Part shown: positions 11,248-43,674 of the stretch, piece by piece | Layout: each line of letters opens with the position of its first letter | Position numbering within the stretch: position 1 is the stretch's first letter | Source of the DNA: Halorubrum depositum | GTDB lineage: Archaea > Halobacteriota > Halobacteria > Halobacteriales > Haloferacaceae | Assembly: GCF_007671725.1 (NCBI RefSeq) | Contig: NZ_VCNM01000001.1 | Span: forward strand, 1,364,001-1,428,000 | Direction: 5' to 3' | DNA length: 64,000 bases | Position numbers and translations under genes: made by a program | Notes under the pieces: model-generated | Seen by the model: the letters and a program-made list of their open reading frames with translations, nothing else | Told to the model about the DNA's origin: nothing | Databases searched by the model: none

Positions 11248-11731
11248 GTGAGACGGGAACACGGAGTCGCTCGTTTATAAGCGGACAGCTGCGGATCGTC
11301 GGTGAACATCTCCAAAGCCCCAGCCTCGAGGGCTCGCGCGGCTCGCTGCGCGCTTCAGTCGCTCGCTACGCTCGCTCCTTGCAGTGCTTGCGTCGCCGTG
11401 CTTCGCCCTCGCGGCAGCGAGGCGCTTCGCGCCTCTGGCAGCCGGCGGCAAAGCCGCCGGCGACTGCCCCTTTGAGTCCCATCCCGCACAGCAACCGCAG
11501 CCTCACACCTCCCCAACCTCGTCGCTCGCTTCGCTCGCTCCTCCCTCGCGCACGCTCCTCGTGGCCGCCACGGGCGGCCACTCGGAGGCGCGCGCCACCG
11601 CGATCCTGAGTTCCGATCGATCACCACCGACACTCAGGGCTACTTATAAATCAGATCGACAGTCAACGGTCCGCGGATCGATCGAAAAACGAGAACGGGA
11701 CTGCGGCGTCGGACTCGGCGTCCGCCGCGCC
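11248..11731. other. 484-bp intergenic region
   Basis: Apart from repeat copy A and its flanking AT-rich patches there is no supported gene. The AT-rich patch TTTATAAGC at 11274-11282 lies about 25 bp before the conserved GGTGAA start of the element and could be a promoter for a transcript of it. The right patch CTTATAAATC lies beyond the end of mdh, which converges on this region. Confidence 0.5.
11301..11602 (+). repeat. Mosaic hairpin element, copy A
   Basis: First of three related intergenic elements. Anchor 1 is CTCCAAAGCCCCAG (11310-11323). Anchor 2 is GACTGCCCCTTTGAGTCCC (11462-11480), followed by a conserved arm resembling CGCAGCCTCACACCTCCCCA. The end block GCGCGCCACCGCG is near 11590-11602. 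Between anchors are copy-specific hairpins: 9 bp with AAA loop (11441-11461), 7 bp with TTC loop (11419-11435) and 9 bp with a 3-nt loop (11561-11581). TTATAA-type AT-rich sequences flank both sides (11274-11280 and about 11643-11650). No ORF here looks real. See findings. Confidence 0.85.
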
Positions 11732-22520: not shown

Positions 22521-22732
22521 GGTGAAGACCGGCAAAGCCCCAGGCGCGATTCCCGCTCGCGATGCTCGCGGGAATCGCGACTACCCCTTTGAGTCCCGCC
22601 CCGCTCCGCACGGCACCGCACCTCAGGCCTCCCCAGCCTCGTCGGCCGCCCTCCGCTTCGCTCCGGGCGACCGACTCCCTCGCACCGGCGGTTCGCGGCC
22701 CTCCAGGCCGCTCACCGGGGCACGCCACCGCG
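22521..22732 (+). repeat. Mosaic hairpin element, copy B
   Basis: Second copy, same orientation as A. It has GGTGAA at 22521, anchor 1 CAAAGCCCCAG (22533-22543), anchor 2 GACTACCCCTTTGAGTCCC (22579-22597), the arm CCGCACCTCAGGCCTCCCCAGCCTCG, and the end block CACGCCACCGCG (22721-22732). The inter-anchor segment is a single 12-bp perfect stem CGCGATTCCCGC / GCGGGAATCGCG (22545-22556, 22568-22579). A second stem pairs 22641-22651 with 22665-22675, and a third pairs 22695-22700 with 22706-22711. TTATAAAT follows at 22739-22746. Confidence 0.85.
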
Positions 22733-43182: not shown

Positions 43183-43674
43183 CGAGGATTAGTTATAACT
43201 AAATCTGCGGTGGCGCGCGCCTCTGAGCGGCCGCCTTTGGCGGCCGCGAGGAGCGCGTGCGAGGGAGCCCGCGGCCGCCGCTGGCGGCCGCGGCGAGGTT
43301 GGGGAGGCGTGAGGCTGCGGTGCGGTGCTGTGCGGGGCCGGGACTCAAAGGGGCAGCCGTGGGGCGGGCGCAGGGGACGCAAGCACCGCAGGAGCGAACG
43401 AAGTGAGCGATCGAGGAGCGTGGTTCGAGACGCCGGAGGCGTCTCGTCATCACGAAAGGCGCGGAGCGCCTTTCGAACGACAGCGAGCGTGCGCCCGCCC
43501 CACGGCTGGGGCTTTGGAGGTGTTATCTGCGGATTCATCGCTCACGTACAGCCTCACGGCTGGGGCTTTGGAGGCGTCTCCCGTCGACCCGTCGTCAATC
43601 TCCCTATCGCCGCCGCTCGCGTCAACCAAGTATAGCGGCGACACCCATTACCGGCCCGAACCCCTACCCCGCGT
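43183..43674. other. 492-bp intergenic region
   Basis: Occupied almost entirely by repeat copy C. An AT-rich self-complementary patch AGTTATAACT (43191-43200) lies at the edge next to the ABC operon. From 43575 to 43674 nothing else is recognisable except the AT-poor upstream region of the next gene. Confidence 0.5.
43207..43574 (-). repeat. Mosaic hairpin element, copy C
   Basis: Third copy, inverted relative to A and B. Read on the minus strand, the order is: anchor 1 CTCCAAAGCCCCAGCC (43505-43519); a large insert; anchor 2 CTGCCCCTTTGAGTCCC (43340-43356); the arm CAGCCTCACGCCTCCCCAACCTCG; and the end block GCGCGCCACCGC (43207-43219). The insert is closed by a perfect 19-bp stem (43354-43372 with 43490-43508). 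Inner hairpins: 9 bp, GGA loop (43426-43446); 10 bp, GGA loop (43453-43475); 10 bp, GCT loop (43270-43292); and 9 bp, TTT loop (43227-43247). Anchor 1 is duplicated (43501-43520 and 43555-43574). Confidence 0.85.

Follow-up and report, generated by a model that had tools for sequence, protein, structure and literature searches.

Analysis of a 64,000-nt stretch of the Halorubrum depositum genome (the window) revealed a real and unusual intergenic element that is apparently undescribed; no description of it was found in the literature searched, which does not prove that none exists. With a probability of roughly 0.7, this element is a BOX/MITE-type intergenic repeat, non-autonomous, dispersed and modular, that has spread through the genus Halorubrum. 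A conserved linker scaffold carries three hairpins (H1, H2 and H3) whose stems change freely and whose arms stay complementary, followed by a tandem tail. Smaller palindromic modules occupy a preferred site in it. Species differ in which sites of the repeat are filled and which are empty, and both orientations occur at one site.

Layout of the window copy

The copy in the window is a modular repeat of approximately 390 bp (43189-43577), beginning at about 43189; the stretch described in the earlier note (43340-43574) covers no more than its 3′ half. In the family, the order of parts is a TTATAA-type end, H1, H2, a G-rich linker, a long H3 and one to eight tandem tail units of 51-63 bp (Table 1 for the window). 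When the anatomy was compared over 41 places of the same genome, from stretches fetched around copies, the 5′ part consisted of the TTATAA-type end, GCGGTGG, H1, GAGGGA, H2 and GAGGCTGGGGAGGYGTGAGG with the G-rich linker, and the 3′ part of GGGACTCAAAGGGGCAG (5′ arm of H3), an apical part, CTGGGGCTTTGGAGG (3′ arm) and the tail. A covariance model built from 21 equal-length H1 hairpins (R1, covering H1 only) matched three family copies in the window.

Table 1. Features of the three family copies, in window positions
Feature	Position	Strand	Remark
Left end TTAGTTATAACTAA	43189..43202	+	TTTATAAATA-type in most copies
Hairpin H1 with GA/GA internal loop, and linker GAGGGA	43207..43266	+	R1 match E = 1.7e-9; pair counts
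Hairpin H2, 28-nt allele, arms complementary	43267..43294	+	
G-rich linker GAGGYTGGGGAGGYGTGAGG...GGGACT, conserved	43295..43345	+	
Hairpin H3, arms 43346-43372 / 43490-43516, including the 19-bp perfect stem	43346..43516	+	
Nested 60-bp two-hairpin module TGGTTCGA...TCATCA...TCGAACGA	43421..43480	+	Same insertion site in 6/57 copies
Tail unit 1, 54 bp, start doubles as 3′ arm of H3	43497..43550	+	Compare tail arrays in a relative
Tail unit 2, conserved part, degenerate beyond	43551..43577	+	
Second family copy	11305..11605	-	R1 match 11542-11601
Third family copy, degenerate	22529..22731	-	R1 match 22676-22731

The base-for-base pairing of a 19-bp closing stem (43354-43372 with 43490-43508), pointed out in the earlier note, was borne out, as were two inner stems with GGA loops, one of 9 bp (43426-43434/43438-43446) and one of 10 bp (43453-43462/43466-43475). 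The arms of H3 extend beyond the perfect stem and are 89% complementary over 27 nt, with 117 nt between them. In folding against 200 dinucleotide shuffles, the z score was -6.8 as DNA and -4.9 as RNA, and none of the shuffles was as good. An exact second copy of the 20-bp sequence CACGGCTGGGGCTTTGGAGG (43501-43520) does lie at 43555-43574, as part of a 27-nt repeat at 93%, and the tail motif in the window exceeds chance expectation.

This duplicated end had been read as either a nested insertion or replication slippage. Slippage is supported for the tail, and insertion holds instead for the inner module. A tandem tail unit accounts for the duplicated end, and the 20-bp duplication was identified as a two-unit tail, not as a target-site duplication. 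In the relative G021, the unit GGCTGGGGCTTTGGAGGTGTTCGCCGTCGATCC...TATTTATAARCGAGC forms arrays of two to eight units spaced exactly 57 bp apart. Five or six units are identical in some of these arrays, and such arrays fit slippage. Over all fetched loci, 57 bp accounted for 69 of 100 unique tail spacings; the window copy has two units at a 54-bp step. Spacings were multiples of three in 94 of 100 unique units because there are few length classes, and a coding tail was rejected, as codon-position entropy lacked a wobble pattern and stops occurred in 10 to 57 of 69 units, depending on the forward frame. On the reverse strand of L154, near 2306-2360, the linker stretch CAGCCGCAACCGCACCTCACGCC occurs three times in tandem, a further sign of slippage within the element.

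The inner module was present in six of the 57 parsed copies, always in the same place and orientation; the remaining 51 lacked it and typically read GAGCG-CAGCGAG across the site. Matches to it also lie in unannotated parts of plasmids from Haladaptatus, Natrinema, Natribaculum and others, where the rest of the element is missing. These comparisons identify the inner two-hairpin piece as a haloarchaeal module of its own, 60 bp long, that was inserted in H3. Like SMR-A of Haloquadratum (PMC3119063), it is small, has inverted ends (TSGTTCGA), lies inside the palindrome of another element and shows no target duplication. In contrast to SMR-A, which measures about 110 bp, it is about 60 bp long, has two variable-stem hairpins and is spread over many haloarchaeal genera.

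Other inserts were seen as well. Different two-hairpin modules lie inside the element at L102, L106, L107 and L127 of the same genome and at L228 and L231 of G021, examples being CGTTCACGAGAGC...GCTCTCGTGAGCCAATCAGAACGC...GCGTTCTGATGACG and GCCGGCGGC...GCTGCCAGAGGCGC. A longer insert in the G-rich linker, from near TCCCGCGAGC...GGGAGCACGGAAG to GTCTTCCGG, was observed in several copies from different species (L171, L221, L233 and L111). At L155, the nested 60-bp module is itself interrupted by a stretch resembling an insertion-sequence fragment.

Copies in the genus and occupancy of shared sites

A search with the 235-bp region hit 69 pieces of the same genome and matched 48 of 52 genomes of the genus. 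At E <= 0.01, R1 had 73 matches in the same genome, against 71 at E <= 0.001; 35 Halorubrum genomes had 3-149 copies each among the matches listed, and two single-contig relatives had 141 and at least 150 matches. In an order-level sample (R1, E <= 1e-4), 28 of 293 genomes matched; 19 of these were Halorubrum, and the other nine had one to five weak matches each. Related stretches lie near the flanking gene in H. aidingense, H. lipolyticum, H. kocurii and H. yunnanense, among others. No phage matched the element by blastn, and no viral contig matched the linker pattern exactly.

All 41 own-genome places examined were within or bordering intergenic gaps, as placed by gene calls from a rough amino-acid-composition method. 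The neighboring genes were convergent at 13 places, co-directional at 19, divergent at eight and undetermined at one, with no preference.

At the window locus, an altered element was found in L017, L018, L020, L030 and L035, and no element in L016, L026 and L029. H1 and H2 are nearly the same in L030, with a different H3; more distant carriers of the element differ in H1 and H2 as well. The 19-bp stem and the inner module of the window occur in none of the relatives compared at this locus. The hairpin turnover proposed in the earlier note thus holds up, since relatives at the locus carry other H3 stems, rather than the same one, or lack the element.

Two further shared sites were compared, with orientation and occupancy counts read by eye from printed sequences. 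At the L098 site, about ten genomes carry the element in the + orientation and L154, L155 and L159 in the - orientation; a few have deletion remnants and about eight have short empty gaps. At the L114 site, L166, L168, L171 and L179 carry it in the + orientation and at least ten others in the - orientation, and L178 and L194 are empty. Opposite orientations at a shared site could reflect in-place inversion or repeated insertion. TTATA, mostly as TTATAA, was found at the stop of the neighboring gene in 13 of the 14 filled sites with both flanks placed; the exception was L184 (TTAGAG), and two empty sites had TTACAG.

Apparent constraint on the folded strand

The stem sequences vary among copies, and the complementarity of their arms is kept. 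For H1, 97.5% of cells were paired, compared to at most 60% with slid partners. Double-sided changes in H1 numbered 38 against a shuffled mean of 12, and none of 500 shuffles was as high; related sequences may inflate this shuffle control, and the partner sliding is a separate check. Arms paired better with their own partner than with a swapped one in both H3 (0.93 vs 0.73) and H2 (0.64 vs 0.51).

Internal 2x2 loops on the + strand were GA/GA in 168 of 180 cases, flanked by several pair combinations, and triloops were GNA in 51 of 87 cases and TNC in one. Wobbles in H1 and H2 comprised 22 G.T and two A.C, in nine and one distinct contexts, respectively; over all helices including H3, the two were equal at 34 each, with recurring H3 contexts supplying much of the A.C count. 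The one-strand GA/GA loops, the GNA triloops and the G.T excess in H1 and H2 are read as constraint on the folded + strand. Therefore, a folded single strand appears to be under constraint.

It is known that GNA triloops closed by C-G form DNA mini-hairpins of extraordinary stability (GCGAAGC type), and a use of such hairpins has reportedly been described in a published study. Based on this stability as DNA, the evidence leans weakly to a strand that acts as single-stranded DNA, with RNA also possible. Tentatively, the repeat could represent an archaeal class of dispersed elements under selection for the folded single strand itself, with the tandem G.A loops and GNA triloops kept on one strand and the stems replaceable; this would suggest a putative protein that recognizes the fold and moves or uses it.

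The strand-specific conserved loops, the covarying helices and the excess of G.T over A.C in H1 and H2 would also be expected of a multicopy family of structured non-coding RNA genes, each copy having its own archaeal promoter (TTTATAAATA) and giving a three-armed RNA of ~330 nt. A TATA-like hexamer was present upstream of H1 in 56 of 93 copies, against a shuffled mean of 2, and in many copies lies 11-14 nt before the H1 flank. However, 37 of the 93 copies lack the hexamer, and with this distance and the usual archaeal spacing, transcription would start inside H1 and cut the basal stem. The TTATAA-type sequence is found at both ends, species differ in whether a copy is present, absent or inverted, and no curated Rfam covariance model matched at its gathering threshold, the matches being far below it. 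An RNA gene family is therefore unlikely.

Stable hairpins stand right behind stop codons at several loci, as in an element that acts on transcripts between genes as a terminator, attenuator or RNase target; this reading is rather improbable, however, as neither convergent genes nor one orientation is preferred and opposite orientations occur at the same gene boundary.

Mobilization and known repeat systems

The termini resemble each other weakly: the left end scored 15.0 against the reversed right end of the same copy, 15.3 against ends from other copies and 12.1 against shuffled ends; the best single copies aligned over 20-29 terminal columns, and the mean score is only slightly above shuffled. 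No clear target-site duplication was seen at two sites compared with empty sites, and neither a transposase nor any other partner acting in trans came to light. Replication-linked orientation was rejected, as runs and excursions did not exceed shuffles on four contigs; orientation does not track chromosome position, which leaves strand-biased insertion unsupported.

The PATEs of Haloquadratum walsbyi are tied to IS605-type transposons (PMC3119063). The Halorubrum repeat is likewise haloarchaeal, palindromic and devoid of a transposase gene, is a target of smaller mobile repeats and has core deletions between short repeats. It is very improbable that the repeat is such an IS605-derived, palindrome-associated element moved by Y1 transposase: palindromes near the ends, the lack of a clear target duplication and nested small modules recall the Haloquadratum PATEs and SMRs (PMC3119063), but this genome has one TnpB and no Y1, and copy number was unrelated to Y1 number across 35 genomes (rho = -0.11, p = 0.54; median of 91 copies in genomes without Y1). 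Y1/IS605 mobilization was rejected on these grounds, although past mobilization is possible.

A non-autonomous repeat of the BOX/MITE type would have been dispersed by trans-acting machinery whose target is the folded strand or the TTATAA-type ends. Each copy would later change through tail-unit slippage, the insertion of modules, deletions within it between short repeats and hairpin exchange with other copies. Such exchange is probable because hairpin alleles are common to different loci.

BOX of Streptococcus pneumoniae is a modular short interspersed repeat with many copies, an internal module in variable tandem number, strong predicted folding, repeats inserted into one another and slow turnover (PMC3049150). 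The Halorubrum repeat resembles it in its many intergenic copies, modularity, variable-number tandem module (the tail unit), strong predicted fold and nested repeats, a likeness that implies no sequence relation. Unlike BOX, it has an archaeal host, hypervariable stems that are kept complementary, and GA/GA loops and GNA triloops that mark one strand.

If this reading is true, the repeat would be a genus-wide haloarchaeal counterpart of the bacterial BOX repeats, at a density that reaches about one copy in 20 kb. Hairpin replacement, slippage of tail units, nested insertion and opposite orientations at common sites can be read from it with unusual clarity, which would make the origin of structured archaeal intergenic repeats directly testable.
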